DNA of 64,000 nucleotides, from NCBI GenBank assembly GCA_019671135.1, contig JAHRHY010000006.1, positions 1,302,001-1,366,000 on the forward strand, read 5' to 3'. Origin of the DNA: Linnemannia hyalina. Its lineage: Eukaryota; Mortierellomycota; Mortierellomycetes; Mortierellales; Mortierellaceae. Below are positions 42,626-60,027 of the stretch, one piece after another. The notes under the pieces are model-generated. The model saw only the letters and a program-made list of their open reading frames with translations. It made no database searches and had not been told where the DNA came from. Each line of letters begins with the position of its first letter. Position 1 is the first letter of the stretch. Both the position numbers and the translations under genes were made by a program.

Positions 42626-42698
42626 TGGAGAACCTGGGCATCGATCCCAGTGCCTCTCGCATGCTAAGCGAGCGCTCTACCATTTGAGCTAGATCCCC
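42626..42698 (-). tRNA. tRNA-Ala (anticodon AGC)
   Basis: The 73-nt gene reads on the minus strand from GGGGATC to GTTCTCCA. The D arm is GCTC-AAATGGTA-GAGC, the anticodon arm CTCGC-TTAGCAT-GCGAG and the T arm CTGGG-ATCGATG-CCCAG, a T loop known from eukaryotic tRNA-Ala. The acceptor stem has one T:T mismatch (position 6:67). A and B boxes are intact and CCA is not encoded. A T5 tract lies about 45 nt downstream (42577-42581 on the complementary strand). Its first 25 bases plus one flanking base are duplicated at 60002-60027. Confidence 0.93.
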
Positions 42699-42699
42699 G
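42674..42699. repeat. 26-bp direct repeat, left copy (probable LINE target-site duplication)
   Basis: Identical to 60002-60027. It covers the first 25 nt of the tRNA-Ala gene and one upstream base, immediately next to the retroelement island. Confidence 0.8.
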
Positions 42700-43392
42700 A
42701 CGGTTGTTACACCTCGGGTATGTTTAATTTCGGGTCATTCAGAACTCCTCCGTCTGGTTCCCGCTACCTAATTTTTGCGACGCCACCAAAAAAGGGCTGA
42801 TAAAAAAATGCTACTCTAGGATTTAAGGTGTAAAAAAATGTAGGGAGGGGACAGTAGGAAAAAGAGGGAGGGAGGATCCAAGTTGGAAGTTATAGTACAG
42901 GGCGAAGGTAAGGATGGGGGAGGGGGTGGATCTCGGCTCGGGGGGGTGTTAGAGCTGTTGGGCAGGCATCGCCGCCTTGGTACGGTGCCTGTTGGTCTTG
43001 TGTGAGCCAAAAAAACCGTTGACTGCTTGTTCAAAGTGTTTCCGCTGTTTAAACGGGTGAGATCCATGTCTTCTGTGTCTGTGATCTGATACGGAGGTGA
43101 GCATGAGCGTGTCAGGCTCGAGGGTAATGACGTTGAGGCTTGTGTGTGGGTTTTTGGTGTTTCTGTGGGTTTGTGTTTGCGGGTTTGGAGGAGAGGAAGG
43201 GAAAAGGATAATAGAGATGGTGAAAAAGAGATTAGAGATAGAAAAAGTGAAAATAAGAGTGAAAAAGAAAATAAAGAGAAAAGATAAAAAAATAAAACAA
43301 AAGGGAAAAGGTCAAGCGAAAGGCGAAAGGGGGGGTATATAGACGCTTGACGTAGAGATACAGAGAAATGAAAAAGAGAGAGAAAAAAAGAG

Positions 43393-43433
<41 letters not shown>

Positions 43434-43477
43434 ATACTAATTAATCCTGCTGGCTGCCCGTTCTCCTCCTGCTCATG
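42700..43477 (-). other. LINE 3' region with a reverse-oriented poly(A) tract
   Basis: Sequence between the RT stop and the tRNA-side duplication. The + strand has 38 consecutive A (43393-43430), so the LINE sense strand has poly(T) right after its coding region. No ORF of interest. Confidence 0.6.
43393..43430 (+). repeat. A38 homopolymer
   Basis: Uninterrupted run of 38 A on the + strand, preceded by an A/G-rich stretch. Confidence 0.95.
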
Positions 43478-46400
43478 TTATGGTGGTTGGAATGCGTCTC
43501 CGAACTGAGGTCCCTTCTTGGTCACCTTGATATGTGGTGTGTGGTGCCACATCTCATAAAAGGCGTTCTTGCCCGCGTGCGGGTCCATCGGTGCCTCCTC
43601 TTCTCGGATCGGCCTTGTTGCGTTCTTCTTGTCCTGCTGCTCCGCTCGAATCCACTCCTCCATGCCTCTGGTACGGCAATTCTGGAGAAAAATCGACTGT
43701 AGCGCGCCTGGCTCGAGTTGCTCTCCTGCTCCCAGCTTGGAAAAGGTAACATATATCGACCAGAGTGCTGCTGTTTGCAGGTGGTATACAAGAGGGTAGT
43801 CATTCATGTTGTCTCGTTCAGGCCAACAAAAAATCCTGTCCTGGGCGGTGCGAGACAAGTCGTTGAGGTCAGGGTAAATAGTCTTGATGAGGTCATGCAA
43901 GCTGTCCCAGTGTGTCGCCAACTCTGGACAGTCGTGAAAGGCATGACGGTTGTCTTCACTCGCTCCTGTATCGCACCGTCTACATGTACCGTCCGTATCC
44001 GCTTCCTTGTAGTGCTTGCGGATATTGTTGGTGGTCACCCTGTTGTAGGCCAGCTTGTATAGAAGGTCGTGCTCCTTGCGACGTAGGTTCGTGTTGTGTA
44101 CTCGGTCCCAGATCAACTTCCACTGCGCAGCCGTCCAGTCCCATGGGAAAGAGGCTTGGCCCGGGTTAGCGAGCTTGTCGGCAATGGTGATGGGCTGGGG
44201 GAGCTCAAGTCCGCTGACGATTGTGCTTCGTGCTTTGCGGACAGAAAATTCTTTGAGGGGTGACTTGTGTTTACCAAAAAGAATGGCTTCCCTTGGATCC
44301 GAGTCTGTAGTGGTTCCGTCCTTGAGTAACGCCTTGACCTTTGTCCATGACATGAGGATGTGGTGGGTGAGGGTGTCGGCTTTTCTGGACTTGATGGCTT
44401 GGGGTGTTGGGTTTTGTTGCATCTTTGTTGGTGGTAGTGCCGCAAAGTGTGTGATAGGTGTGTCTTGTTGAATAAGGGGGCGGGTGTACTGGGCAACAGT
44501 CTCAAAGGTGTGCTGCCATTTTACTCCTGGCCGTTCCGTCTTCCAACGAGCAATCCACTTTGCCTTGAGGGCAAGGACTTGAGAGCGAGGGTGTATAAGA
44601 CCCCATCCTCCGTCCTTTTTTGGCTTGAAAAATGTATCCAGCGAGATACGGACTTTTCTGCCATGCCACAGCACGTCCCTTAGGATATTTTCTATTTGGT
44701 CGTAAAAATTGTTTGTAAAGGGGTAGAACGGTGAACAGTGCCATAGTTTGGATAACAGATATGTGTTCAAGACAGTGACTCTGCCCTGAATGGTGAGACC
44801 GCGCAGCCGCCAGGCTGCGGTCGATCCCTTCAGGTCATTAATAAGTCTCTTTTCGATCACTTCCAGGTTAAATCCATTAACGGACAGTTCTACACCTAGA
44901 TGTGTGAATGGTGCTCCATATCTTTCCCAATTTGTGAGGTGATCAAAATTGAAATAGTGTTGGGCCCAAGGTTGTAGTGGTATGAGTGCTGTCTTGTCCT
45001 TGTTTACCTTGGCTCCTGATGCAAGTTCATGTAGAGCCAAGGCCCCCATCACTACTTCCTCATCCCCTCTGGAGATGGACAGGGTGGTGTCATCTGCAAA
45101 AGCGTTCACTTTGGAGGCGTCACCGTTCGGGAGCAGGGTACCACGAGCTCTCTGGCTGTAGTACCTAAGAAAGGGTTCAAGAACAAAGTTGAATAGTAGT
45201 GGTGCTAGTGGATCGCCTTGTCTCAGTCCTCGTTCAATTTGAAAAGGCTGGGTCATGCGTCCATTGACAATGATTCTGCTCGACGGATTAGTATAGCATC
45301 GAGTAATCCACGTCCTGAAGCGGTCTCCAAAGCCAAAGGCTTTGAGCGCTTCATGAAGATACTTCCATTCTACTCTGTCATATGCCTTTTCTTGGTCGAG
45401 ACTAAGAAGGGCATCAGCAGGGAGGTCGGGGCGTGGGTGTCTCTCCATCGCGTCATTCAGATCCAAAAATTGGAGAATGCGATGTTGTGCCAACTGTTCG
45501 TCTGTGATTTGTTTCTGCACATGCTGCATCAAAAGATGCATATTAAGTACGTTGTCATGACCCTGCCTGCCCTTGACAAAACCTGTTTGCCAGGGCTGGA
45601 GAAGGTAGGTGGCGACCTTGTTGACTCGTTCTGTCAGTGCTTTTGTAAAAATTTTGTAGTCGCACCCAGAAAGGGATATAGGGCGATAATTTTTGCACAA
45701 CGATCGTTCTCCTTTTTTAAAAAAAAGAGCGACGGCCGACTTTTTGGTCGACGGGGGCAGGTCAAAATCCTCTTTCGTTGCCTCGTTGTATACTTGTGTC
45801 AGCAGGCCGGATAGCATGTCCTTGAATGTCTTGTAGAATTCAAAAGGTATACCGTCCTCACCTGGCGCTTTGCGGTTTGCACTCATATCAATTGCTTTTT
45901 CTATCTCGACCGGGCTCAAGTCACTGTCCAGAATGGCGACATGCTGGGCTGTGACCTGAGGAAGATCCCGGAGGAGAGCTGATCTAGCCATCGCGTCTGA
46001 GCCTTGTGATGTGTATATGGTCTTCCAAAAGTCCCTGACTACTTCTTCTCTCTCCTCGGTTGTGGAGGTAAAAGTGCCGTCTGGTTTCTTTAAGTGTGGA
46101 ATTAATTTTTTCGCTCTTGATCCTTGCAAGACCCGTGTAAAGTAAGGAGAGGGGATCTCTCCTTCTTCTATCCACTTTACCCTGGCCAAGATAGCGAGAC
46201 GCTCTAGAGACTGTTGTTCGAGATCAATAGCCTCCGCCGTGAGGCGGGCATAAGTGTCTGCTGCGTCCTGGTCAGAGGGGTCTGCAATCAATTGCTCGTT
46301 TGTCTGTTTCATTTTTCGTTCAATGGTGTGTTTCTTTTGGATTTGTTTTTTTCGCTCCTTTTTTCCAAATTCGGACGACACCTCCAGAATCCTTTCCTTT

Positions 46401-46642
46401 GCTCTATCCCAGAACTCGAACGCTTTTTCCTCTGGGATGGAAATGCGTGAGGACATGAGATCATCCCACAATTGTCGGATAAGAGTAATGTACTCTGGAT
46501 TCTTAAGGTGGCGGACATCGATCGCACGCTTGCGATCGTCGTCTGCAATGGTCTCGGTGGATGACAGTTGACAAGAGATGACCGCATGGTCGCTCTGTAT
46601 ACCTGTGCACACTGTGACTTTTGCATCTGAGGCAATTGGAAA
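43478..46642 (-). pseudogene. LINE ORF2, reverse-transcriptase half (3' part of split ORF2)
   Basis: On the minus strand this continues the endonuclease half at 55845-56533. It opens with the SDHAVIS motif carrying the endonuclease catalytic His. RT blocks follow: RPISLSGCDYKIF, LSLDQEKAYDRVEW (first catalytic Asp), GLRQGDPLAPLLFNF and the FADD box (AFADDTTLSI). Near the C-terminus is the zinc-binding CRRCDTGASEDNRHAFHDC typical of zf-RVT. No RNase H domain is seen. The frame is open to the stop at 43478. The nearest ATG (46705) lies inside the LTR, so any product made now would begin with LTR-encoded residues. Excising the LTR element and one target duplication would leave a single frame of 1282 residues. 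Broken only by the insertion. Confidence 0.9.
46638..46642. repeat. Target-site duplication GGAAA, left
   Basis: Five bases next to the left LTR, repeated at 55845-55849 next to the right LTR. Confidence 0.93.
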
Positions 46643-46783
46643 TGGAGAATAATAACCGGGGTTGTGATAGTAAAGGTTATGATGGGAATAGGAATAACGA
46701 AACAAAGAGAGGGATCTGTTTAATTCAGGGACGAAGAGTCCTTATGTACTCTTCGTCCTAATGATACACGTGATTATAGCACA
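46643..46783 (-). repeat. 3' LTR of chromovirus (141 bp)
   Basis: Identical by eye to 55704-55844. On the element sense strand it begins TGTGCTATAATC and ends TTATTCTCCA, with the usual TG...CA ends. It contains a perfect 11-bp hairpin stem (46729-46739 with 46748-46758). Confidence 0.95.
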
Positions 46784-47317
46784 TAACCCTCCACGGGGGG
46801 AGAGGCTGTAAGCCGGGTTTAAGACTAGGGCTAGAAGTAGTGTATCTATGCTAGTAATTGTGTGTGCTTCTTACTAACTGACAAAACGACGTGGAGTAGA
46901 GTGCTATGACTAAACGAAAGAGTTGTCGTTTGGATGTTTGAGGGAAAAAAGAAAACCTCATATGAAAGAAGGGGTGTAAGGGAAAAAATCGAAAAAACCT
47001 TGGAAGGGCAAAGCCCTGGAGAGCAGGTGTAGAAAAGACAATAATGACTACAGTAGAATATGTGTATATGTGTGTGTGAGGATAAAAAATAAAAACCTCG
47101 GTAGATAAGTTGATAAGCTGTGAGGAAAAAATAAAAACCTCAATATAGTGAATTTGATTGCAAGAGGAAAGCGAGAAAACCTCTGCAGATGTATGTTATT
47201 ATTGTGAGGAAAAAGGTTGTGACACCATTAAAAAACCTCGAACAAATCGTCAGAGCGATTTCTGTTCAAACAAAACGTCGATGCGTTTTATGTGTCAATC
47301 GGAGGATATGATTGTCT
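46784..47317 (-). other. Chromovirus 3' non-coding region with repeated hairpin motifs
   Basis: Between the pol stop and the 3' LTR. It carries six short inverted repeats of form GAGG-(A-rich spacer)-CCTC or variants with matching changes in both arms (see findings). No ORF of note. Confidence 0.7.
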
Positions 47318-50300
47318 TCAATCCTTCCCGATCCGAGAACGAGTTCTAGGTCTCAACTCATTGATTTTTGATTGACTGGACTGAGTGAGCTTATTGCGAT
47401 TAAGGTTGTGTTCACCTTTTTTAGGTGTGAACTTGTTCTTCTTTGTGTTCAAGCGATTGCTACTTTGAGGTTCGCTCATTAGTTCGTCGGTAGTAAGCAT
47501 TGGCTGATCCGTTTGCGAATCATGACGAGAGTGCGGACGAGGATCCTCATTACGGGGTGGGTGATCGGCCCAATAGTCCGTGATGCATTTCCTCTCAACA
47601 AAATTGTCCTCTGGTTCCCAGGTGTTGTCGTTATCAGAATAATTTCTCCACTTGACAAAGTACTCCCATGTCCCTTCCTTTGTACTACGAGCGTCAAGAA
47701 CTTTCTCGACTTCGTACGTAAGGAAAGAGTCTGGGTCTTCATATACAAGTTTGAGCTGCGAGGGCGCATAGTTACGACCAAGCATAGAGCCAGTGCCATC
47801 TTTGAGGATGTATGCACCGCCCTTGTTTTTACGAACAACAGTAAACGGTCCTTCATATCTCGGAGAGAGGGAGTCTCCTTTGATAGGATCAACCGCCATA
47901 ACTGTGGAACCATCAGGAAATTCGCTGTGCAGTATCGTTTTATTGAATCTCTCAATCATTTTCCGCTGATTAGATTTCGCCTTCGCTTCAATAGCGGGGA
48001 ACACGATCGTAGTCATAAATTCGAGTCTCTTCAGCAAGTCTTCGTGGGACATGACCTGGTTCAAGGGGTCAGTGTAGTTGTAGTGTCCGTTTTCCTTGCG
48101 TGCGAAGAAAAGAGAGTAAGGCGTGGAACCATGCAAACTCGCAATATTTGCATTGAGGGCAAATTGGGCCATGGGAACATGACGATCCCACTCGTGGTTT
48201 TTGCCTTTGGTCTCTTTTCGAAGAATTTCTTTGACCGCTTTAACCCGGTTCTCGGCTAGTCCATTGCCTCTCGGATGATAGGGTGTGACAAGACGGTGAT
48301 GGATACCCAATTGTTCTGTCATTATTTTTGTGACCTGATTGGAAAATTCTTTTCCGTTATCTGATTGAAGGACTCGGGGGAATCCGATCAGAGTAAAAAT
48401 GTCAAACAGCGTGGTCGCAACAGTAGCGGCTGTTTTATCAGGTATAGCTCTCAAAATAACGAAGCGGGTGCATACGTCTGTCAGGACGAGAAGATATTTG
48501 TTGTTTTTCGAGGACAAATGGAATTCACCAGCGAGATCTACAGTCATATGCTCGCCTGGTAAATGTGCATGAATAGCCTTGAGGGGATGGTACCCTTTGC
48601 GAGTGATATTAATGCGTTGACACTCAGGGCATTGTTTGACGTGCTCAAGACAATCCTTGACCATGAATGGCCACGTCTTGTCTTGGGCGTGAATTTTGTC
48701 AACCATTTTGTTCGCACCAATATGACCGAGGGAGTGAACCTCAGTCATGAGTGAAGGACGGTCTTTCGCTGCGACAGTGATTCTAGGAACCGATTTGTCT
48801 TTCAGCATATGAATGTAGCCGTACACTTTCATTGGTGTTTTCAACTTAGGCCTGTCAGTCCACAACTTCTGAGGGAACTGACGAGATAACGCATCAGGTA
48901 ACACATTGAGTACTCCAGGACGGTAAACAATGTTGAACGAGTAAGCCATGATGGTGTCAAACCAAGTTGTCATCATTGGGTTCAAATCTTGCTGTGAGTG
49001 AAGAAAAGTAAGAGCCCGATGATCGGTGAACAAGGTAAAATGGTAACCCCAAAGATATTGATGGAATTTTTTCAATGCGAAAACAATCGCTAATAACTCC
49101 TTCTTAGTAGCGGAATATTTTCTCTCTCGGTCCTGCAGAGTGCGAGCCATGAAAGATATGTAGTTGACGTTCGAGGGAACGGACTGTATATCCTTCGGTT
49201 CGGGTACACCTTCCGGCAACTGATACAGTACCGCACCAATTCCAACGTTGGACGCGTCCGTGGCAACGTAGAACGGTCGACTGAAGTCTGGGAAGGATAA
49301 CACGGGAGCTCGTACAAGTAGTTCCTTGAGTCCAATGAAAGAATCCATTTCATCTTTTGATAATTTAAAAGTTCCTTCTCTATGACGAAGTGCATCAAGT
49401 GGTGCAGCAATAGTACTGTAGAGAGGGATATATTCACGAAAGAAATTGAGGGTACCCAAATACGATTGCACTTGTTTGGCGGTGGTAGGTGGTGCCCATT
49501 CGTGAATGTTAGCCAACTTGGTAGGGTCGACTTTCTTTCCAAAGAGATCAACAATGAATCCCAGCAGAGAGATCTGTGTGCTGAAAAAATTGCACTTGTT
49601 CTTGTTGATGATCAATTTCGCCTCGTTGAGTCTTTCGATCACACATTTGACATGAGCTGCATGCTCTTCTCTGCTCTTTGAAAAGATAACAATGTCATCA
49701 ATAAAGTTCAGAACAAAAGGCAAATCGCCAAGGATGCGAGACATACCTCTTTGGAACAAGCTCGAGAGTGGCTTCAGACCAAAGGGGGCCTTTTTGAACA
49801 TGTATTGTTTTCCCTCATGCATGAAAGCAGTGAGGTGCCTGTCTTCTTTATGAATAGGTAGACGATGGTACGCCTGTGTAAGGTCGATGGTGCTGTAGAT
49901 GGAATGACCAGCTACTTTTTGCATAATATCGGAGATGAAAGGGAGAGGGAAATTATCCTCTGGTAAATGTACATTGAGAGCACGAGGGTCAAGACACACT
50001 CGCCACAATGACTTTTTCCCATCCAAATCCTTTTTAGCTGCAAGTGTGAGGGTGTTGTTATGTGGGTTGCCAGCAGGTGCTAGCTCGATCACATCATCCT
50101 CTAGCCAGCGTGCGACCGTTTCATCCAATATGGGTCTCTGGGAGTGAGCAAATTGTCTAGGTCGTCGATATACAATGGTACCTTTTGGAACAGGTAGATA
50201 CACCATCATCTCAGGAACGGGGCAATGACTTGTCTTTGAGATATTTTCATTGTCTTTGAGTGCTTTGCTGATGGCATCTAGGAATCTTCCTTTCATGCGC

Positions 50301-52768
50301 TTAAACTCAGCGGTGAGTTCCTCTTCAGGGGTGGTAATCGGACGCAAAGATGGTTTCTCGTCTTCAACGGGAACATCATGTGCAGGTGACATCTCTTTTA
50401 TTTCTGGGAGACCGCAGAGAGCGAAGCCCATATGATAAAAAAGATCCATTCCGATTGTAAGAGCAAACTCTTGATCTTCGATTATTTCAAAAGGGGCAGA
50501 GAGAAACCGACCATTGAATTCGAATTCAACTTGATCAGTTACACCAATGCGTTCGACAATAGTCTTGTTTGCTAGTGTAAAATTACCAAGGATCTTAGTG
50601 AAAGGAATGTTATGTTCCTTGACTATGTCCTGTCTGATAAAAGAATGTGTAGCACCAGTATCTATTAACGCATGGTGTGTCCTCTTGAATGCACGGATTT
50701 CGATTCGAAATCTATTGTCGTGTTCTACTGCATCCTTAATAGCAGCATAGTGTCTGATAGTTAATTTGTCAGATGCGAAAGTGTCGAGTTCCTCAGTCGT
50801 CATACCAAAGCTACTGTCATCGTCACTGTGGTAGTCCATGTTAGCCTGACTTTGAGAAGCAAGGTTAGACAGGCTAGCAAAAGACGGTTCTTTTGTTTCA
50901 AAGTATGGCACAGAGACAAAGGCAGATTGTTTTGTTGGCAATGAGCGAAACGCGTATTGGGGTCGTGCACTCGTAGGTGCAGGTACATCCTTATCAGTTG
51001 TAACTGATTGTTCGCTATCCGGTAAAGGGGTTACAGACAAATCATTTTCTGTAGTCACAGACACATTATTTTCTTCTGCTGAAGAAGTATGGACAGCAAG
51101 TGAAGGAGACAGAATTGGACCAATAGGGATAGTGTTAGAACCAGTCAGTGGTAATTTTTTATTACTAAGTTCTGTTATGACAGGAGAGGGAAGTGTCATG
51201 TCGTTCGTCTCTACGAGGTCCTCAGGTTCACTTGTCTGTAGAGAAATAGTAGCATGAGTGAGCAAGGTTTGATCAGACACAGAGAAAAATTCAGATTCAG
51301 AAAAAGGAGGTATAGACAATTTACCTTCTTTCTTGTTCTTGTAGCTCTTGCCGCCCTTGCTGTCAGAGTTCTTCTTGCGATCACTGTTGCAGTAGGGGGC
51401 AGTGTGGCCATTCTTGTTGCACTTGGTGCAGTGCCTGCAGTTCTTGGTATCATGCGAGCGATTTTCACCGTGATTGTCACAGTGGAAAGTCTTCTTGCCA
51501 GAGTTAGACGAAGATGGGAACGACGACGAATCAGCAGTCGGTTTGCCTTTGCCACTGCGGTCGTTCTTGCGGTGACGTTGTCGCTTGTGACCATGGTTAT
51601 TACCGGTCTTGGACGAGGAGGCATCCTTGTCATCTTCATCATCGTCGACGAGACTGTGGGGTCTCTTGAGAGAGTCGTCTGGTCCTTCCATTACACTGAG
51701 GTTGGTAAGGATCTCACAAATAGAGTCCAGCTTGACCTCAGATAAGGAGGTGCCAGTCTTTTGAATCGATGTCTTGATCAGGTTGAGCTCCACCGATGGG
51801 ATTGAACTCATGATGCCAGACAGTACAGTGGCGTTGTTATCATCAATTCGATACACGCGCACTGATCGTTGGAGACGAAGAGCGAAGTTTCGGTACGACT
51901 CCTTGTGACGACGGCCAATTTCGGCGACACGAGCAACGGTTTTGAAGCGTTCCGTCGGAGTCAAAACACTGTCGACGAAGGCAACTTCACATTCCTCCCA
52001 AGTTAGGGAAGAACTGCCGTGACGAGACAGCTCATCAGTGAACTGCTGTCGTGTCTGATCGTCCAGAATCGCCATACAGAGCAGGCGTTGGGCACTGGCG
52101 AGGAAAGGAGTCTCGCCGTAACTGTTCTCACAGTAAGTCTTGAATCCATCGAGGAACAAGTGAGGGTCGCGGATGACTTGATACGATTGTCCCTTGCCGT
52201 GCTTGATGTCACCAAATCGGGGAGTGCCCGAGTCGAGTGTCAATTTGTTGCTGTCAACCCTGATAGCGGTGGCAATAGTCGCCGTGGGATCGGTCACGAT
52301 CGGTGCCATCGGTTGGTCGAGAGCCAGTGCTGCTGACAGACGCGCACAATCCGCGGTCTTTTGGCGCACGACTTCTAAGAGTTGGATGGCTTCCTTCTGC
52401 CACATCTGGTAATTGACATCGAGAGGGTTCTTGTGCATCTTGAGCAGGGTGCGACGGTATAGCTTGGACCAATTAGAAAGATCGTGTTTCTTGGTGGTGA
52501 TGGCTTCCTCAAGACCGCTGGTGAGCTCGGAGTCACTCACGTCGTCAGCATCCGTCATGGCAGAAAAAGTGTTCGGGTCGAAGACTGGAGAGGGCTGCAT
52601 GTGCTGGTTTGCCGACAAGATGGACGAGGCCTGTTCGTTGTCATCGCTCATAATGATGTCCTCTCGGAATACAGGGACGGGGGATGGAGCGACAACAAAG
52701 GTGCCGGTGGCATCGATAGCCAAGTCTTGGAGAGTGGGTAACTCGTTGTTGTCAGAGTTGTCAGACAT
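47318..52768 (-). CDS. Chromovirus Gag-Pol polyprotein
   Basis: A single open frame of 1816 residues. A gag region is followed by the zinc knuckle CTKCNKNGHTAPYC (about 450) and protease ALIDTGATHSF (about 700). RT has the box NFIDDIVIFSK (about 1020). RNase H starts at YVATDASNVGIG (about 1170) and includes LFTDHRALTFL. Integrase has an HHCC zinc domain ending CPECQR (about 1345-1390) and a DDE core, with Asp in VDLAGEF, Asp in QSDNGKEF and Glu in AENRVKAVKE (about 1410, 1470, 1507). A C-terminal chromodomain (YEVEKVLDAR to WEPEDNF, about 1690-1740) defines it as a chromovirus; such chromodomains can steer integration to marked chromatin. No frameshift separates gag and pol. All catalytic residues looked for are present. 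Confidence 0.95.
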   Translation of the reverse strand: MSDNSDNNELPTLQDLAIDATGTFVVAPSPVPVFREDIIMSDDNEQASSILSANQHMQPSPVFDPNTFSAMTDADDVSDSELTSGLEEAITTKKHDLSNWSKLYRRTLLKMHKNPLDVNYQMWQKEAIQLLEVVRQKTADCARLSAALALDQPMAPIVTDPTATIATAIRVDSNKLTLDSGTPRFGDIKHGKGQSYQVIRDPHLFLDGFKTYCENSYGETPFLASAQRLLCMAILDDQTRQQFTDELSRHGSSSLTWEECEVAFVDSVLTPTERFKTVARVAEIGRRHKESYRNFALRLQRSVRVYRIDDNNATVLSGIMSSIPSVELNLIKTSIQKTGTSLSEVKLDSICEILTNLSVMEGPDDSLKRPHSLVDDDEDDKDASSSKTGNNHGHKRQRHRKNDRSGKGKPTADSSSFPSSSNSGKKTFHCDNHGENRSHDTKNCRHCTKCNKNGHTAPYCNSDRKKNSDSKGGKSYKNKKEGKLSIPPFSESEFFSVSDQTLLTHATISLQTSEPEDLVETNDMTLPSPVITELSNKKLPLTGSNTIPIGPILSPSLAVHTSSAEENNVSVTTENDLSVTPLPDSEQSVTTDKDVPAPTSARPQYAFRSLPTKQSAFVSVPYFETKEPSFASLSNLASQSQANMDYHSDDDSSFGMTTEELDTFASDKLTIRHYAAIKDAVEHDNRFRIEIRAFKRTHHALIDTGATHSFIRQDIVKEHNIPFTKILGNFTLANKTIVERIGVTDQVEFEFNGRFLSAPFEIIEDQEFALTIGMDLFYHMGFALCGLPEIKEMSPAHDVPVEDEKPSLRPITTPEEELTAEFKRMKGRFLDAISKALKDNENISKTSHCPVPEMMVYLPVPKGTIVYRRPRQFAHSQRPILDETVARWLEDDVIELAPAGNPHNNTLTLAAKKDLDGKKSLWRVCLDPRALNVHLPEDNFPLPFISDIMQKVAGHSIYSTIDLTQAYHRLPIHKEDRHLTAFMHEGKQYMFKKAPFGLKPLSSLFQRGMSRILGDLPFVLNFIDDIVIFSKSREEHAAHVKCVIERLNEAKLIINKNKCNFFSTQISLLGFIVDLFGKKVDPTKLANIHEWAPPTTAKQVQSYLGTLNFFREYIPLYSTIAAPLDALRHREGTFKLSKDEMDSFIGLKELLVRAPVLSFPDFSRPFYVATDASNVGIGAVLYQLPEGVPEPKDIQSVPSNVNYISFMARTLQDRERKYSATKKELLAIVFALKKFHQYLWGYHFTLFTDHRALTFLHSQQDLNPMMTTWFDTIMAYSFNIVYRPGVLNVLPDALSRQFPQKLWTDRPKLKTPMKVYGYIHMLKDKSVPRITVAAKDRPSLMTEVHSLGHIGANKMVDKIHAQDKTWPFMVKDCLEHVKQCPECQRINITRKGYHPLKAIHAHLPGEHMTVDLAGEFHLSSKNNKYLLVLTDVCTRFVILRAIPDKTAATVATTLFDIFTLIGFPRVLQSDNGKEFSNQVTKIMTEQLGIHHRLVTPYHPRGNGLAENRVKAVKEILRKETKGKNHEWDRHVPMAQFALNANIASLHGSTPYSLFFARKENGHYNYTDPLNQVMSHEDLLKRLEFMTTIVFPAIEAKAKSNQRKMIERFNKTILHSEFPDGSTVMAVDPIKGDSLSPRYEGPFTVVRKNKGGAYILKDGTGSMLGRNYAPSQLKLVYEDPDSFLTYEVEKVLDARSTKEGTWEYFVKWRNYSDNDNTWEPEDNFVERKCITDYWADHPPRNEDPRPHSRHDSQTDQPMLTTDELMSEPQSSNRLNTKKNKFTPKKGEHNLNRNKLTQSSQSKINELRPRTRSRIGKD

Positions 52769-53309
52769 AGGAGTGATGATTTGTGATTTAGAGTGAGAGT
52801 GTCGGACAAAAGTTCAGAAGTTCTTGAGTGGATCGAAAAGTTGCCTTTCTTGTTAGGGAAGAGGTTTCTTTTAAATACTCATTACCGACACGTGTCATAG
52901 CAGCGTAGATTTTTAATCCGTATGCAACGTTTGCAGTGTTATAGCAAGGATGTTGTTTGTACCTAGTAATGGTGTAAAGGGAGCATTTATTTTCCTTTAT
53001 TTTCCTTTATTTTCCAATTAGCAAGCAAAAATAACAAAGATAAAAGAGTGAGGCTCTTTGCTGTTGTTTCTGTCAGCATTTATTATTTTGATTTCGCTGC
53101 TATTCGCATAGGTGTCACAGATCGCTACTTATGTATGCTAATTGCTCTTCGGTCATATCCGAGGGTGACATAGGTTCGAGGTTGCGTCTGACAGTCTCCG
53201 GTGATGGAGGTGCGAAGGAAAGAAACAAATGCAATCGCTCGATTAGGAACTCAACATCGACGAAAATACTAGAGATAGTGTTTATTTCTATTGAAGCATC
53301 ATACACAAC
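52769..53309 (-). other. Chromovirus internal spacer upstream of gag
   Basis: Leader of the gag-pol ORF, with a repeated TTTTCCTTTA-type stretch near 52990-53015. It contains a 63-codon minus-strand frame (53306-53115) starting 4 bp after the stop of the 223-residue ORF. That frame may be spurious or a further exon. Confidence 0.45.
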
Positions 53310-53981
53310 CTAAGGATTAGACTGCGCATGGGAGTTAAGGTACGTCAGGCGCTGCTCGTATGTACGGGCGAAAGATTCCCAGGCTTGTCGTGCTTCCAAC
53401 ATGTATCGAAGCTCCTTTTCTTTCTGATCTAGGTGTTGCCTCACCAACGTCAGCTGATCGTATTCCTGCTGCGAGGTGCAGGAGAGAAGCCTCTCGTACA
53501 CCCGCCCGGCCTGAGCAAAGAGCTCTTGCTGTTGCTGAGTGTAGGCCACTAGCTGTTCTTGTTGGAGAGAGGTCCACCAAGCCTGAGGAATGTTCTCCGA
53601 AGATGGTGCCGGTGCAGACAACAGTACAGGTACAGGTGAAGAGACGGGTATAGGCGAGGAGACTGGTGGAGGCGATCGGTCTTCCGCGACTTGCGAGAGC
53701 GGGTCCTGTGAGAGACAAACCGTCTCATCGGCCTCATGATCGATACAGTCTTCATGCTCAATACTGTCCTCCTGCTCGACGCTGTCCTCCTTGGACCAGT
53801 TGTTAGACGCAGACAGTTGCTGTTGTGACGACTCCAGCTCGTGTGCAAAGCGAGTGTTCTTGACTGGCCTTTTGGTGCCATGGGTGGAGCGGGTTGAGGT
53901 CATTGTGAAAGTTGGTAGTGAAGGGTGTTTGTGTGAATGGGATGGAAAGCGAAGAATGTGGAAAGAAGTTGTTTCTTTCAT
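53310..53981 (-). CDS. Chromovirus accessory ORF B (unknown function)
   Basis: A frame of 223 residues in the same sense as gag-pol, ending 541 bp upstream of it. The start may instead be the internal Met of MTSTRSTHGTKR (residue 27). The N-terminal half is Ser/Pro/Glu-rich and the C-terminal half is Gln/Glu-rich and probably helical (LQQEQLVAYTQQQQELF to ARTYEQRL), suggesting a coiled coil. No known domain, signal peptide or membrane helix is seen. It lies in the element between the 5' LTR and gag, where most Ty3/Gypsy elements have only a short leader. A CCAAT box and an AT-rich CATAAAAAG lie just upstream on the sense strand. Confidence 0.55.
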   Translation of the reverse strand: MKETTSFHILRFPSHSHKHPSLPTFTMTSTRSTHGTKRPVKNTRFAHELESSQQQLSASNNWSKEDSVEQEDSIEHEDCIDHEADETVCLSQDPLSQVAEDRSPPPVSSPIPVSSPVPVLLSAPAPSSENIPQAWWTSLQQEQLVAYTQQQQELFAQAGRVYERLLSCTSQQEYDQLTLVRQHLDQKEKELRYMLEARQAWESFARTYEQRLTYLNSHAQSNP

Positions 53982-54468
53982 CCTCTCTCTCTTTTCTCAT
54001 TCTTTTTATGTCTCTTCCTTTTCTTTTCCTGAATGCCAATTGGATCAAGGAAATCAGGACGTGGTGCATGGTGATTGGTCGAGACACTCATGCAAAGATG
54101 GCGTGCTTGTAAAAGCGAAAAGAAAAACAACTCATTCTCATGCATACATGTCTTGTGCCAACAGCGCTTGCATCATCCGCGGAGAAGATAAATAAAAAAT
54201 ATAACACGATGCATGATGACATCGATTTTTCTACATCATCTACTGATGAGGGTGATGACATCGTCTTTCATTGTGCATCCTGTGATCTGCAGGTGAAGAC
54301 TCACCTTCGATGACGCGCAGGAGCAAACATGCTATTGTGCGGGAGTATATTTTATCCTTGTGATTAGGCTTGAGTCATGAGGGAGAGAGAAGTACAACGA
54401 TTCAAGAGAGAAAACAAAACTGTATTAGTCAGTTCTTTTTATTTAGAGTTGTGTTTGAGATCTTGTTA
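53982..54468 (-). other. Spacer between chromovirus accessory ORFs
   Basis: About 490 bp holding a GATGACATCG-type motif pair (54216-54270), the better copy of which recurs at about 55363-55380 upstream of accessory ORF A. Confidence 0.5.
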
Positions 54469-55143
54469 CTACTGATCCTGCCGTGGCGACACAACTTGCT
54501 GATGTTGTTCTTCCGTCTCCTCGTGCGTGGAGTGTTGTTCAGCGTCAGGTCTGTTTGTTTGTACAGCCGAACTCCTTTTTGTGACGTATGGCCGATGAAA
54601 GTAGTTGTGCGTGTCGAGGCGTCGAGAGGGAGGAAATGCGACTCTCCTCTGCCAATAATCATCGAAATGGGATAGGGTGCGCTTGACAACCTGTATTTTT
54701 GTCTCCAATCCTTCCATCATATGATTGTATTTCCAGTACTCCTGGTCCTGGAGGTCGATGGTGGTACCGATGTCAATGGGTGGCTCGGTTTCCGAGTCGA
54801 ACATGCCGTGCATATCGCACAGTCGGTGGATGGTTTGGGCGGCAGCGTATGTCTTCGAGGATTGAAGGTGTACAAGAAGGGATTGGGCGTTTCGTATCGC
54901 TACAGTGCCTATCCTGCCTTCATCGGGTTGAACCGCCCAGAAGTGCGGTGGAGCAACGTCATGAAGATAGTTGTGAGTCGGTCGCTGGGGCGTTGTAGTG
55001 CTGTTCCTTCTGTCAGCGTATGGGTGCGCGCGTGTGGGCGACGTCCTTCGTGGCGGTGTTCTGCCGCTGTCGCTAGTAGAGCGAGGAGGGGACGGGGTAT
55101 TGTCTCCTTGGGGACCAGATGAGGGAGCGTTGTCATCGTTCAT
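54469..55143 (-). CDS. Chromovirus accessory ORF A (unknown function)
   Basis: A frame of 224 residues, same sense as gag-pol, starting about 560 bp inside the 5' LTR. The N-terminal 55 residues are Ser/Thr/Pro/Arg-rich. The centre (AIRNAQSLLVHLQSSKTYAAAQTIHRLCDMHG) and the following YWKYNHMMEGLETKIQVVKRTLSHF segment look helical. The tail is Gln/Glu/His-rich. No recognised family. It resembles accessory ORF B in size and layout (disordered N-terminus, helical C-terminal half), but no clear sequence similarity is seen by eye. Confidence 0.55.
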   Translation of the reverse strand: MNDDNAPSSGPQGDNTPSPPRSTSDSGRTPPRRTSPTRAHPYADRRNSTTTPQRPTHNYLHDVAPPHFWAVQPDEGRIGTVAIRNAQSLLVHLQSSKTYAAAQTIHRLCDMHGMFDSETEPPIDIGTTIDLQDQEYWKYNHMMEGLETKIQVVKRTLSHFDDYWQRRVAFPPSRRLDTHNYFHRPYVTKRSSAVQTNRPDAEQHSTHEETEEQHQQVVSPRQDQ

Positions 55144-55703
55144 GATGCGTGTGTTTTGTTGCGCTGTCGAGAAGGAGAGTTGTTGGGAGATGGTAAAGGT
55201 GTGTTGACAAAGTGTTTTACTTTTTCATTCCTCCTCCATCCTTCTCACTTGTGATCTTGTGCAAAGTTCTCACAAAGCGCATTCATCGCTACCTGATGGT
55301 CATCTGCCATTGGTTCATGCTTGAATCACGCCATCCCATAGAAAATCTTGAGAATCAACAAACGATGACATCGTCTTTTATTTTCAACATCATGTGACAC
55401 TAATCGTCAGTGGAGATCTTACCTGCGGTGAGGTTTTGTCTCTGCTCAAGCATCACAATCGATGCGAGGTCGTGCTTTTGATACCCTTGAGTATAAGCGG
55501 TAGTGGTTCCAGTGTTTTCAGACTGGAGTGGTGCCAGTAGTGAGACGGTGCTCTGTCAGCTGCATGGCTGACCTTCCATACGGTGATGGGTGTGCATTCA
55601 TTCCTTTCGTGTCTTTTTTTTTTTTTTTTTTTTTTAGAAAAGTGAATGCGTGTAGGGGTGTGTGAAGTGGGGAAGATCCCTATTGTGAATTCGTTAAGAA
55701 AAA
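55144..55703 (-). other. Chromovirus 5' untranslated region
   Basis: Between accessory ORF A and the 5' LTR. It contains a T-run of about 23 (near 55613-55635 on +). Directly next to the LTR, TTCGTTA (55690-55696 on +) is complementary to TAACGAA inside the LTR (55756-55762). Confidence 0.5.
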
Positions 55704-55844
55704 TGGAGAATAATAACCGGGGTTGTGATAGTAAAGGTTATGATGGGAATAGGAATAACGAAACAAAGAGAGGGATCTGTTTAATTCAGGGACGAAGAGT
55801 CCTTATGTACTCTTCGTCCTAATGATACACGTGATTATAGCACA
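55704..55844 (-). repeat. 5' LTR of chromovirus (141 bp)
   Basis: Identical by eye to 46643-46783. It is followed on the right by the target duplication GGAAA (55845-55849) and the LINE endonuclease. Confidence 0.95.
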
Positions 55845-56533
55845 GGAAATAAGGTTGGGGTAGAGACAAAAATGTAATCGATGCGTGTTTGCACAATCTC
55901 ACTTTTGTCTGCCCCTATTTTTCTGTGTTTGGTTCGACAGGTGAACCGACCGGCTTTTGTAGGGCCTCCCTCTTCCACTGGTGGCATAGTTTCTCTCAAG
56001 TCGAGACGAGTGAGAATATTCTCAAGGTGGTGCCAGTGGGAGCGGTTGCGTTGCCCCGCCTGCAGGGCGGGCAAGCGATCGTTCTGTATGTCTTTGTATG
56101 TGTTGAAGTCACCTCCAATAACCAGTCGTTGATGTTGGAGTACATCGACTGGGAATCGAAGGAAAAATGCTCTTCTTTGGTTGTGGTCAGAGGGGGCGTA
56201 CACACTTGCGAAGCGGTATTCTACCCCGTCTACTAAAAAGTCAAAGTAGACGATACGACCGTTCTCCAGCGTGTGGCACTTGTCTGCATCCATCTTGATG
56301 TGTTTTGATTTGATCAGAATGGCCGTATGCTGGGAAAAATAGCTCTCTCGAGCCCATTCTCTCCTCCATTCGGGAATCTGGTTGTCTTTAGGGTTACACT
56401 CTTGTAGCGCAATAATGTCAAACGGTTGTGTTTTGAGCCAGCGGAACAAGTTCTGCCGTTTTCTCGTATCCACAACACGATTGCAATTAAACGATGCAAA
56501 TGATAGACTGGTCATTAGAAAAAAATATATCAA
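55845..56533 (-). pseudogene. LINE ORF2, APE endonuclease half (5' part of split ORF2)
   Basis: Starts at MIYFFLMTSLSFASFNCN (the second Met is a plausible start). Endonuclease motifs are IIALQECN (catalytic Glu), YAPSDHNQRR, VIGGDFNTY (Asp, Asn) and TRIDYIFVSTP. The remaining catalytic SDH motif lies on the far side of the LTR element, at the start of the RT half. The frame currently runs into the LTR and stops after two foreign residues. It lies 68 bp downstream of the preceding ORF (ends 56602). The protein half is otherwise open and undamaged. Confidence 0.9.
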
Positions 56534-56601
56534 TGAAAAACAAAGATCTAAATAAAGATAGACAGAAAAAACGGATGATAAAGAAAAGGGTAAACTTCTT
56601 T

Positions 56602-57330
56602 TTATTGATCCATATCTCCACCACCTCCATTCTGTTCTAGTTCTCTTTGGGCTTCTTCTCTCTCTGCCGCGGTCCAGAGACGATCGAGACTATCGCCCAT
56701 GTCGTCGTCCTCATCGTCATCGGTCTGTAAGTGGTTGTGCTGTTGTTTGTTCGTAGTATCATGGGCGTCGCATTCAACACCTGAGGGTGGTACGCTAGCC
56801 TTCTGATGGGGTGATGCTGGCGTGCTGCTGCTGCTGCCGGAGCTGCTGCTGCTGCTACCATCACTAGAAGTAGCTGGGGGGCCAGAAGTGCCTTGAGCAT
56901 TAAAGACAAAGGCCTCTGCATGTATGGACGCCACACCAAGCCACCCCTGGGTTTGAGCCTGGGGTGTAGGTGGGTCCACAACTTGCATTGGTGAAGCCTG
57001 TTGTTCTCTGTTGCTTGCGGGCGCGACCTGCTGATGGGGTACGGGATTGAAGCTCAGAGCGGGCTTCGTCCCATTCAACCCTTCAGCTTGGACAGGAGGC
57101 CTCTGTTGGGGTACGGATGCATTGGTCACGGGGACCTTGCTTCCATTCAACCCAGCAGCCTGCGGTGCAGGAGTGGTGGCCTGTCCAGCGGTCTTTGTCT
57201 TCTTCTTCCTTGGCTTCTTCTTCTTGGGGGCGCCATCCAGAGACCTAAGTCTCTTGTGGTCCTGGTGTGGTGATGTAGATGGGGATCTGCTTTTCGAGTG
57301 ATATTTTGGTGGCGTTCTTGTGACCACCAT
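56602..57330 (-). CDS. LINE-associated ORF, basic low-complexity protein
   Basis: Starts at the Met of MVVTRTPPKYHSKSRSPS (57330); an upstream in-frame Met at 57441 is also possible (279 residues). The 242-residue product has an Arg/Ser-rich N-terminus, a very basic APKKKKPRKKKTKT run, Pro/Gln/Ser-rich middle and an acidic end. No zinc knuckle. It sits directly ahead of ORF2 in the same sense, so it may be the tail of ORF1 or a separate nucleic-acid-binding ORF. Its 5' end and leader fall in the left arm of the foldback. The inverted copy in the right arm has a stop after 11 codons. Confidence 0.55.
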   Translation of the reverse strand: MVVTRTPPKYHSKSRSPSTSPHQDHKRLRSLDGAPKKKKPRKKKTKTAGQATTPAPQAAGLNGSKVPVTNASVPQQRPPVQAEGLNGTKPALSFNPVPHQQVAPASNREQQASPMQVVDPPTPQAQTQGWLGVASIHAEAFVFNAQGTSGPPATSSDGSSSSSSGSSSSTPASPHQKASVPPSGVECDAHDTTNKQQHNHLQTDDDEDDDMGDSLDRLWTAAEREEAQRELEQNGGGGDMDQ

Positions 57331-57777
57331 ATGTAGTGTAGAAAATGAGAATAAATAATTCTGAACCGAGCTATTGGCTCGGGATGCTTCTTTTCTCTTA
57401 CTCTTTTTGATCCATTCTTTTGTTGTGTTTCCTTTGAACAAACGCCAGTGAAAGCAGGATCAGCGCTCCCTTTATTCTCGACCTCCTTTATGTTGCGACC
57501 AATACCCAGGCGTTAGAAAACGTACGGGCGATCGAACAGTCGGGACGCGCGATGAAAGCATCATATTCCAGGGTCTACTTCATTGTCAGTACTCTTTTCA
57601 CCATCTTTTCACCCCTTCCTTCCCCTGTTTGTTATAAAGATCTCATATATGCGAACTCCTTGGGACTACCCCAGTCGTTTCTTAAAAGAACTCAGTCCTT
57701 TTTGCTCTTGGTGTCCGTTTGACTAAACTAGATCCCCTCCTATCTTCTTTTGTAACAAGCAACCACATCACGACACT
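57261..57777. repeat. Foldback inverted repeat, left arm (517 bp)
   Basis: Reverse complement of 58089-58605, same length, with about eight substitutions by eye and no gaps noticed. It includes the leader and first codons of the ORF at 57330-56602. Confidence 0.93.
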
Positions 57778-58088
57778 GGGGGTCCTGGCCGGAGGGCCCC
57801 GGGTCCTTGATGGTGGGTTTTGGCGCATGGCGGGTCTGAAATCCATTCTGGTCCGGCGCCGAGATTCTCTTTGATCCCTGCTCCTTGTTGTTGTTGTTGT
57901 TGTTGTTGTTGTTGCTGTTGCTGTTGCTGTTGCTCTTGCTGTTGTTGTTGTTGTTGCTTTTGTTGGGTTGTTGTCTGTTGCTGTTGTTACCTCTGCTACT
58001 ACTACCGAGTTGGTTGACTGTAGGCGTTCCCTCCATGTAGCGGTACGACATGATGGTTTTAGTCAGCAGGGGTGTGTTGCTCAGGGCT
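57778..58088 (-). other. Foldback spacer with polar ORF fragment
   Basis: The 311 bp between the arms encode on the minus strand MSYRYMEGTPTVNQLG followed by Ser/Asn/Gln runs (CAA/AAC microsatellite near 57886-57960) and then GFQTRHAPKPTIKDPGPSGQ. The open frame (58147-57740) reaches into both arms. It could be the N-terminus of another LINE ORF1 or a remnant. Confidence 0.45.
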
Positions 58089-58605
58089 AGTGTCGTGATG
58101 TGGTTGCTTGTTACAAAAGAAGATAGGAGGGGATCTAGTTTAGTCAAACGGACACCAAGAGCAAAAAGGACTGAGTTCTTTTAAGAAACGACTGGGGTAG
58201 TCCCAAGGAGTTCGCATATATGAGATCTTTATAACAAACAGGGGAAGGAAGGGGTGAAAAGATGGTGAAAAGAGTACTGACAATGAAGTAGACCCTGGAA
58301 TATGATGCTTTCATCGCGCGTCCCGACTGTTCGATCGCCCGTACGTTTTCTAACGCCTGGGTATTGGTCGCAATATAAAGGAGGTCGAGAATAAAGGGAG
58401 CGCTGATCCTGCTTTCACTGGTGTTTGTTCAAAGGAAACACAACAAAAGAATGGATCAAAAAGAGTAAGAGAAAAGAAGCATGCCGAGTCAATAGCTCAG
58501 TTCAGAATTGTTTATTCTCATTTTCTACACTACAAATGGTGGTCACAAGAACGCCACCAAAATATCACTAGAAAAGCAGATCCCCATCTACATCACCACA
58601 CCAGG
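58089..58605. repeat. Foldback inverted repeat, right arm (517 bp)
   Basis: Partner of 57261-57777. On the + strand it holds the same leader and MVVTRTPPKYH start (58536), then a TAG at 58569 where the left arm has a Ser codon (TCG). It joins the ORF1 fragment abruptly at 58606. Confidence 0.93.
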
Positions 58606-59531
58606 CTTGCTGTTGCCTTGCTGCAGCTTCTAGAGTCGTGTCCAGTAATGCCGCATCCCACGAAGAAGGCCGGGGCGTTTCTCCTGAAAAAGTACGTGTT
58701 CCAGCGAAGAAAGTTGGCGATCCTGGGCAGCTGTGGGTTGGACGGGATGTTCTCGTGGAACGTGAGTCGGAAGGATATGTTACCATCCTTGATTGTGTGT
58801 GTTGGGTGTCGAATGTACCCAAAGCTGATGTTGTCAACGGTCCCGTGGTTACCGAAGATAGCCGTCAGTTCGGTCTGGATCTGTTCCAGATTGTCGGTGC
58901 AGGCGATGTTGTTGGCGAAGATCGTCTCCTCCACTCCCGAGGTGTACACCGTCTTGGATGGCTGAATCCAGAAGGTGGTTGTAATCTCCAGGGGGATGTT
59001 AAGGGCAAAGTCAAACTCAGCCTTATCCTTGAAAATCGCTGCCATATATTTATGGACTTGGTCGAATCGCAGCTCCGTCACGCCCCTGACTTGGTCTGCG
59101 ATGGCATTCATCACCTGGGTGTATGTGATGCCTTGGGGCGTGTCCTTCTTGCCGGGAAGGGTGGAGGCCAGGACATAGTCGTTCCTGAACACGGTCGCGG
59201 GGAGCGTGTCTGCTACTGGGCGATACTTGCCCGCTGCAGCCTTTTTCGCCCATGTTGCTGTTGACTCCAGGGGTGGGCGAAACACAACCGGTTGTTGCTG
59301 TTGTTGTTGTAGTTGTCGTTGTTGTTGTTGTTGTTGATGCTGTTGCTGCTGTGGTGGGTTCGAGGTGTCGGGGGTTGAATTCGACTTTTGATGGATGGGT
59401 GGATGGGTCCCAGATCCATCCATCGCCAACCTGGGCGCTGCAGATGCCGATCTGGTTCCAGTTTCTGGATTCGGGTCGGTACCTGGCGGAACTGTTTCTG
59501 CCGCCAGGGCCATGTCGTGATTGACCGACAT
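58593..59531 (-). pseudogene. LINE ORF1 (gag-like), 3' end replaced by foldback arm
   Basis: Frame of 312 residues starting MSVNHDMALAAE. After a polyglutamine-rich N-terminus there is a conserved gag-like body (TYTQVMNAIADQVRGVTELRFDQ, NIACTDNLEQIQTELTAIFG, SFGYIRHPTHTIKDGNISFR) and one zinc knuckle written as FFVGCGITGHDSRSC. A CCHC knuckle needs Cys three positions before the first visible Cys, where Phe is found. The last residues (SLVW, stop) come from the foldback arm, so the original C-terminus is lost. Confidence 0.75.
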
Positions 59532-60001
59532 GGGTAGGTGGGAGATAAAAAGGAAAAAAGAGAGGTGGTAGTGTTACTCAGGGGAGAGGGTTGACGGCCA
59601 GAGTTGTAGGACCGCTGTTAAGTCCTCAATTGGTACGAGGGGGAGGGGAGGTTGTAGGTTGGAGGGGGGGGGGGAAGTGATAGCGTCCTAAACGAATCAC
59701 ACGAAACGATACACTGTAGCGCGACAGCGAAACTCTTGTTAATACTGCTCTCGTCCAAGAAGTGATGTGTAAAAGGACCTTGAATTCATATTATCAAAGA
59801 GGGGGTTGTTACCTGCAGCGCGCCAGCGAAACTCTTGTTAATACTGCTCTCGTCCAAGAAGTGATGTGTAAAAGGACAAAGAGGGCTCGGCGCACTACTA
59901 ATACTATGTCTACTAAGGAATATGACTGCTAACCTAAGGCATCGCCGCCACTGCCTAGCCACCACAACTTTTTGTAACAGTAGAAAGGGGAAGAAAGAGT
60001 T
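59532..60001 (-). other. LINE 5' region
   Basis: Contains a G-rich tract on + (59639-59678) and two copies of a 64-bp block (59715-59778 and 59814-59877) spaced 99 bp apart. It ends at the tRNA-derived 26-bp repeat. No ORF. Confidence 0.6.
59715..59877. repeat. Tandem monomers in LINE 5' region (period 99 bp)
   Basis: Blocks 59715-59778 and 59814-59877 differ at only two positions by eye. The sequence following the first block (CAAAGAGGG) recurs after the second in shortened form. Confidence 0.88.
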
Positions 60002-60027
60002 GCTCTACCATTTGAGCTAGATCCCCG
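60002..60027 (-). pseudogene. tRNA-Ala 5' fragment (right copy of 26-bp duplication)
   Basis: The first 25 nt of tRNA-Ala(AGC), including the A box, plus one flanking base, identical to 42674-42699. The rest of the tRNA is absent here, since LINE 5' sequence follows on the minus strand. Confidence 0.85.

Follow-up and report, generated by a model that had tools for sequence, protein, structure and literature searches.

A probable site-specific L1-type LINE that inserts into tRNA-Ala(AGC) genes of Linnemannia hyalina and regenerates them

The LINE and its tRNA flanks

The window analysed here, a 64-kb stretch (64,000 nucleotides, nt) of contig JAHRHY010000006.1 of the soil fungus Linnemannia hyalina, carries on its minus strand a long interspersed nuclear element (LINE) with tRNA-Ala(AGC) sequence on both sides. 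Read along this strand, the order is flanking DNA, a stub consisting of the first 25 nt of the tRNA, the LINE 5' end, the open reading frames (ORFs), the LINE 3' end and a complete tRNA gene. This order had been proposed in an initial annotation of the DNA, together with the prediction that the host keeps a complete tRNA, which ARAGORN and Rfam indeed recognize at 42626-42698. Over 72 nt, the gene does not differ from the 13 other tRNA-Ala(AGC) genes that were found. The tRNA and LINE features are as follows.

42626..42698, minus strand: complete tRNA-Ala(AGC) gene, target and 3' neighbour of the LINE (ARAGORN; Rfam RF00005, 52.2 bits)
42674..42698, minus strand: 3' copy of the 25-bp duplication, tRNA nt 1-25 (sequence identity)
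42699..60001, minus strand: LINE with full-length 5' and 3' ends, enlarged by nested insertions (ends common to other copies)
43478..46636, minus strand: 3' part of LINE ORF2 with reverse transcriptase (RT) (Pfam RVT_1, 1.6e-30)
55835..56533, minus strand: 5' part of LINE ORF2 with APE/EEP endonuclease (Pfam Exo_endo_phos, 2.8e-12)
56602..57441, minus strand: 3' part of LINE ORF1 (open reading frame)
58593..59531, minus strand: 5' part of LINE ORF1, broken by a ~0.5-kb repeat (open reading frame and repeat analysis)
60002..60026, minus strand: 5' copy of the duplication, the tRNA 5' stub, nt 1-25 (sequence identity)

The LINE starts with AACTCTTTC and ends with ACAACCGTC, without poly(A). Its 5' end at 60001 is where it had first been placed, and its 3' end at 42699 is one base away from the 42700 named at that time. 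Direct comparison confirms that 42674-42699 and 60002-60027 are identical. The 26 bp had been described as tRNA nt 1-25 plus one base; the identity stands, but the duplicated unit is 25 bp, tRNA nt 1-25, because the LINE contributes its final C directly before the downstream tRNA copy in 11 of 11 cases, whereas the base before the stub differs by locus. The 26th identical base is due to chance, since C is both the final base of the LINE and the last base of the window copy's left flank. A 26-bp duplication is thus rejected. Within nt 1-25 lies what we take to be the A box, which the stub keeps at the 5' edge of the element, as had been pointed out.

The initial annotation had treated the whole span 42674..60027 as LINE. 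This is not so, since a gypsy element, a solo long terminal repeat (LTR) and two ~0.5-kb repeats lie inside it. The 17,303 bp from stub to tRNA comprise a LINE of ~6.7 kb (the length of a 7,188-bp copy on the contig labelled C33, minus its 490-bp insertion and four extra bases) and these later insertions. The gypsy element, which has identical 144-bp repeats at its ends (46640-46783 and 55701-55844), separates the endonuclease part of ORF2 from the RT part. The LTR has at least 54 matches in the genome. The two repeat arms are 98% alike, inverted and ~300 bp apart, and both are inside ORF1.

46640..55844, minus strand: later insertion, Ty3/gypsy chromodomain element (domains and repeats)
57261..57777, no strand assigned: later insertion, ~0.5-kb repeat, arm 1 of an inverted pair (repeat analysis)
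58089..58605, no strand assigned: later insertion, ~0.5-kb repeat, arm 2 of the inverted pair (repeat analysis)
~59570..59980 (approximate), minus strand: later insertion, solo LTR of a high-copy LTR element, near the LINE 5' end

Judged by its predicted endonuclease and RT, the element is an L1-type (APE-type) LINE, a class assigned from these domains and not from the tree of relatives discussed below, which was built without curated L1/Tx1 clade reference elements. In the window copy, the APE/EEP endonuclease is placed at the start of ORF2. A PDB search with a profile of 19 family members gave LINE-1 ORF2p as the best match (1.3e-114; R2, 9.8e-32), and the same profile matches L1 endonuclease structures. 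The motifs NCN, LQE, YAPS, GDFN and SDH, found by eye, are presumably the catalytic motifs of the ORF2 endonuclease. Open frames of 1,281 to 1,334 amino acids (aa) span ORF2 in three copies, and the C33 copy has an uninterrupted ORF1 of 629 aa with a CCHC motif seen by eye (the Pfam zinc knuckle match is weak, E 0.46). In the ORFs submitted to Pfam there was no match to a transposase, nor to a second nuclease, the latter being weak evidence of absence. A poly(A) tail is usual, though not universal, in L1-group LINEs. Here it is missing, and ...ACAACCGTC meets the tRNA directly in all 11 on-target copies.

Copies, target specificity and reuse of the site

The assembly that was searched comprises 51.51 Mb in 50 contigs (labelled C1, C15, C17, C33, C47 and so on); the published PacBio genome of L. 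hyalina SCG-10 has 51.56 Mb, 52 contigs and 317 tRNAs (PMC8444964). A host ABC transporter encoded in the window has matches among Mortierellaceae proteins, with identities of 98% and less. With up to two mismatches allowed, tRNA-Ala nt 1-25 occur at 25 sites, namely 14 complete tRNA-Ala(AGC) genes and 11 stubs. LINE sequence follows all 11 stubs, at C17:437602 only after 198 nt of non-LINE filler. The LINE 3' end lies directly at nt +1 in 7 of the 14 complete genes, the other seven having different upstream DNA, and it is also found directly upstream of four stubs. There are thus 11 insertions at 7 of 14 tRNA-Ala(AGC) genes. When the LINE 3' end together with the tRNA was used as a DNA query, 23 candidates were obtained, all of which were scored: 12 with LINE, seven LINE-free tRNA-Ala(AGC) genes and four weaker tRNA matches. 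A junction-pattern search led to the same 12 places. Since the pattern contains tRNA-Ala bases, it does not suffice to rule out LINE ends at other tRNAs; the exclusion rests on the 3'-end DNA search and on a protein search with the RT. The latter returned 10 near-identical copies (99-100%, one in two pieces), all at tRNA-Ala(AGC) loci, and the eleventh copy is without RT.

The initial annotation had suggested that all copies be collected, and had regarded copies at unrelated sites as contrary evidence. Of the 12 LINE 3' ends, 11 abut nt +1 of tRNA-Ala(AGC) sequence and belong to copies with a 25-nt 5' stub, and one, a 3' fragment on C15, is off target. The LINE is therefore site-specific in the R2/Utopia sense, with nearly all copies (11/12) at one base of one gene family.

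The junctions of the on-target copies are exact. On the sense strand, the LINE 5' side is joined directly after tRNA nt 25, the LINE 3' end meets nt +1, nt 1-25 are present on both sides, and the downstream gene is intact. Six copies have the full 5' end, AACTCTTTC, after the stub. Five others start internally, at positions 1396, 3962, 4069, 4544 and 6681 in the coordinates of the C33 copy. As these five share the same 25-nt stub, with at most 1 nt of microhomology (by eye), the sense-strand join after nt 25 is independent of the completeness of the copy.

Some junctions have peculiarities of their own. The copy starting at 6681 is the one at C17:437602, where the 198 nt of non-LINE sequence lie between a stub with one mismatch and a LINE 3' end of ~0.5 kb; the filler perhaps reflects a template jump to another RNA. 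At C33:344899, an extra GAGC between the stub and AACTCTTTC repeats the last four nt of the stub, and the donor RNA could have begun inside a stub.

The core TAGCTCANNNGGTAGAGC of the target is present at 52 genome sites, 25 of them Ala(AGC). The other 27 comprise 18 tRNA-Lys-like sites (complete tRNAs), one Ala(CGC) and eight unchecked sites, so that 19 are confirmed tRNA genes. The 3'-end DNA and RT protein searches placed neither a LINE end nor an RT copy at any of the 27. The comparison of 7/14 LINE-bearing Ala(AGC) genes with 0/27 other sites gives a Fisher p of 1.5e-4, and that with the 0/19 confirmed tRNA genes a p of 8e-4. A LINE was also missing from the three Ala(TGC) genes examined. 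If all 317 tRNAs were equal targets, the chance of finding the seven occupied loci all among the 14 would be ~3e-10, or 7e-9 with two C33 loci counted as one. On the sequence evidence, the tRNA-Ala(AGC) gene is the only established target. The genome also has a LINE family with poly(A) tails, for which no tRNA was seen in the 3' flanks (253 nt to 1.8 kb) of three copies sampled out of at least 11.

The target is a gene transcribed by RNA polymerase III (Pol III), and the duplicated segment contains the presumed A box. The Pol III machinery at the tRNA gene, rather than the DNA sequence, might thus direct the LINE, as has been proposed for Dictyostelium TRE5-A. We consider this unlikely for the present element, which hits only one isoacceptor (0/27 core sites with their 19 confirmed tRNA genes, 0/3 Ala(TGC)) and does so at a position that is invariant to the base. 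For the same reasons, recognition is most likely by DNA sequence.

Empty sites indicate what the loci looked like before insertion. On C17, an empty paralog (C17:545759) matches both flanks of the occupied locus C17:584814/579510 when these are joined via one tRNA copy, and the similarity is closest over the 100 bp ahead of the tRNA. For C1:1807643/1786119, the alignment with the empty C1:1688596 covers the left flank and the tRNA; the right flank is little alike. These two paralogous empty loci show that the tRNA was native to the locus and that there was only one 25-mer prior to insertion, which supports the early proposal that insertion near nt 25 duplicated the 5' part of the tRNA. The complete tRNA after the LINE 3' end at 7/7 occupied genes would also be expected if LINE and tRNA moved as one composite unit, with the tRNA as cargo. 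This is hardly credible, and we reject it: the DNA downstream of the tRNA is mostly locus-specific, the empty paralog C17:545759 is similar to the occupied C17:579510 on both sides, only a 25-nt stub comes after each of the four inner array members, and the C15 copy stops after 14 nt of the tRNA.

The site is reused, as is apparent from arrays of three insertions at two tRNA genes and from the four stubs with a LINE 3' end upstream. At C17:430964, the three insertions in line all differ from one another in both 5' end and 3' lineage. At C33:358708, again with three insertions in line, the middle member has a 3' lineage unlike that of both neighbours. Arrays could in principle result from unequal crossing-over between LINEs instead of repeated insertion, and three C33 copies with an ORF2 interruption of the same size and at the same place make some duplication likely there. 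As the origin of the arrays, crossing-over is nevertheless improbable, in view of the three 5' ends (one with the 198 nt filler) and three 3' lineages on C17 and of the divergent middle member on C33.

In the RT region, eight other copies were compared with the window copy at the DNA level, with identities of 99.70-99.96% in nine comparisons, two of which are overlapping parts of one copy and most of which have partial coverage. The differences over the nine comparisons are 18 synonymous and 5 nonsynonymous. By this measure, the LINE is recently active.

Proposed insertion mechanism and regeneration of the target gene

We take the element to be, with a probability of roughly 0.85, a recently active, site-specific L1-type LINE that inserts in tRNA-Ala(AGC) and regenerates the gene. 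The APE/EEP endonuclease would nick the antisense strand at the 5' border of the tRNA, and the LINE RNA would be reverse transcribed from the nicked 3' end (target-primed reverse transcription). The sense strand would be cut 25 nt downstream, and fill-in would then duplicate the 25 bp. With a staggered segment that starts at +1, the gene would be regenerated by the downstream copy, and the target of only 14 copies would therefore not be depleted. Each new insertion would push older ones away from the tRNA, which would give rise to arrays.

Several points weigh against this reading. The genome searches score the best candidates only, so that decayed or very short copies could have been missed. 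The order of nicking is deduced, and the insertion product does not reveal where the antisense strand was nicked. C33:352112 and C33:358708 have 3' flanks that agree at 47/47 bp and outer 5' flanks with 95% similarity over 245 bp, suggesting that they may come from one duplicated locus. Since some C33 copies may stem from locus duplication, the 11 insertions are an upper count, with at least seven separate insertion events (the five truncated copies and those on C1 and C47). L081, with 39% RT identity the closest relative within this genome, lacks a tRNA over the ~5 kb that follow its RT: ARAGORN found none in L081 or in the next 3.4 kb (L087), and there was no stub-like motif, and no Rfam remnant in the last 1.7 kb. 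Thus, a position at a tRNA is not common to the whole clade. Finally, the off-target fragment at C15:643352-643748 (a 397-bp match consisting of the LINE 3' part and 14 nt of tRNA) lies between 16-bp direct repeats, AGCTCACCCTCTGGTG, of which AGCTCA is common to the tRNA part.

The C15 copy is most simply explained by an RNA template that ran on into the tRNA and whose reverse transcription was primed at a short match. Read-through templates thus exist, and the 25-bp copy might sometimes be RNA-borne. The donor RNA would then read into its own tRNA, its tail would anneal to the cut target, and the RT would rebuild nt 1-25. The C15 copy speaks for this with its 14 nt of tRNA after the LINE 3' end, the 6-nt match AGCTCA and the 16-bp flanking duplication, which show that a template RNA reached into the tRNA on at least one occasion. 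It is one case only, however, and a marker to distinguish donor from target is lacking because nt 1-25 are identical in all 14 complete genes. The single variant stub (C17:437602, one mismatch) fits later mutation equally well. A staggered cut or a read-through RNA could make the 25-bp copy, and the sequence fits both; we regard the RNA-borne copy as a possible but somewhat unlikely route.

RNase P cuts tRNA precursors at +1. Because the LINE 3' end, without poly(A), is exactly at +1, RNase P could make it from a co-transcript of LINE and tRNA. The tRNA might then serve both as a self-renewing pad and as a 3'-end signal, with relatives in the clade having switched to other tRNAs, although we are rather doubtful of this extended scheme. 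The LINE 3' end can be folded into a hairpin that uses the first G residues of the tRNA, and the related element L085 has a hairpin in the same place. A conserved 3' structure is not claimed, the z-scores of five folds being -1.65 to -2.15 in 4/5 and +1.05 in 1/5.

Relatives and known systems

Among the best 120 of 643 matches in the search for relatives, P0002-P0019 (from ena, lgn and jgi sources) have 33-49% identity, with P0002 and P0003 the closest at 48-49%. Together with L081 and L085, they fall into a supported 21-row clade (99/99), apart from the poly(A) LINE family of the genome. L085 (NZ_JANXSO010000066.1; 40% RT identity) is a LINE on a 6.7-kb contig of a metagenome-assembled genome labelled Iodobacter. 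The contig is probably contaminant eukaryotic DNA in a bacterial genome record. P0016 is identical to L085 in the RT core. L085 has an ORF1 that is cut by the contig start, an ORF2 of 1,335 aa, and a 3' part that runs into a tRNA-Lys(CTT). This tRNA is complete (6094-6166), on the same strand, and 570 bp after the ORF2 stop; by the tRNA density of L. hyalina, the chance of a tRNA at this position is ~0.2%. The contig starts inside ORF1 and the stub position is outside it, and with a single copy the LINE 3' end is not fixed. The position of L085 at tRNA-Lys(CTT) is a hint of target switching among the relatives.

In L. hyalina itself, there are no tRNA-Lys-like stubs: the 18 sites with one mismatch to the 5' end of the L085 tRNA-Lys are all complete tRNAs (18/18), as are two further sites with three mismatches. 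The search among genome contigs gave two loci with relatives, L085 and L086, both in bacterial records and presumably eukaryotic DNA. L086 is a partial match, in which ARAGORN found no tRNA. Of 56 pattern matches among viral contigs, none is a relative.

LINEs that are specific for one kind of tRNA gene have been described before. According to the passages on NeSL-related elements in PMC4640811, NeSL-1_TV is found at tRNA-Pro, LIN15_SM at tRNA-Arg and LIN25_SM at tRNA-Glu. With these elements in print, tRNA-gene specificity itself is not new. The same passages assign the NeSL clade to the restriction-like-endonuclease class, in contrast to the N-terminal APE/EEP domain and the best match to LINE-1 ORF2p found here. 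The precedent cited in the initial annotation, the TRE elements of Dictyostelium, is apt in that these LINEs sit beside tRNA genes, but in view of the NeSL-related elements it is not the only one.

As far as the relevant parts of PMC5911963 and PMC5006619 go, the dictyostelid TRE5, TRE3, NLTR-A and NLTR-B are APE-type LINEs that use tRNA genes as safe sites, and NLTR-A sits only 2-6 bp upstream of the tRNA. They are located beside tRNA genes at variable distances, whereas the L. hyalina LINE is at a fixed base of one isoacceptor, with a duplication inside the tRNA. Moreover, these accounts give oligo(A) ends for TRE5-A and TRE3-A and an RNase H for NLTR-A and NLTR-B. Instead of the upstream or downstream distance and the many kinds of tRNA that are typical of TRE elements, we find 0 bp from tRNA +1 and one isoacceptor. 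In the review table of PMC5911963, so far as its entries go, every tRNA-associated APE-type LINE has its place next to a tRNA gene. The open-access literature searched, a scope that leaves out subscription papers, Repbase reports and supplements, contained no APE-type LINE located within a tRNA gene. What is new here is that an APE-type LINE inserts at a fixed base of a single tRNA gene family and restores its target; tRNA-gene specificity of LINEs as such was already known.

Other site-specific elements are similar in some respects. Utopia and Keno, in the sections of PMC4640811 devoted to them, also have a low-copy small-RNA gene as target, with ~10 intact U2 genes in Phytophthora compared to the 14 tRNA-Ala genes here. 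In the present case, each insertion rebuilds the target gene and so removes the depletion problem raised there for U2. Dada elements insert inside tRNA genes, tRNA-Ala included, but as portrayed in the relevant part of PMC8869645 they are DNA transposons with a transposase, unlike the present element, which has an endonuclease and an RT and no transposase in the ORFs tested. R9 of rotifers is reportedly another site-specific LINE whose target site duplication, in an RNA gene, is unusually long, but it is directed to ribosomal DNA.

The discussion of U2 targets in PMC4640811 poses the question of how a target with about ten copies can sustain a LINE without being destroyed. The L. hyalina LINE offers a testable answer, in that a duplication starting at the first base of the gene leaves a complete gene, keeps the site reusable and builds arrays. 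Being an APE-type LINE that hits a tRNA gene with single-base precision, it is also the kind of element that is wanted for targeted integration at multicopy safe sites.

Some further repeats were observed around the LINE and its targets. ORF2 of one C33 copy is broken by a 490-bp repeat (C33:347830-348311), of which a 94% copy is present at L081:7106-7595, downstream of the LINE of L081. The ORF2 interruptions of two further C33 copies have the same size and place, the sequence having been seen in one copy only. Several tRNA-Ala(AGC) genes, whether they carry the LINE or not, have long repeats that end ~100-300 bp upstream of them (for example L054, L055, L064, L065, L069). These repeats are mostly >90% alike, with some pairs at 74-80%, and gave no match when compared with the solo LTR and the gypsy element of the window; possibly, they represent another tRNA-associated element. 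In the window, ~300 bp downstream of the tRNA, a tandem array of 8/16-bp units (GGTTAATC, GGTCAATC) extends over 42193-42326.

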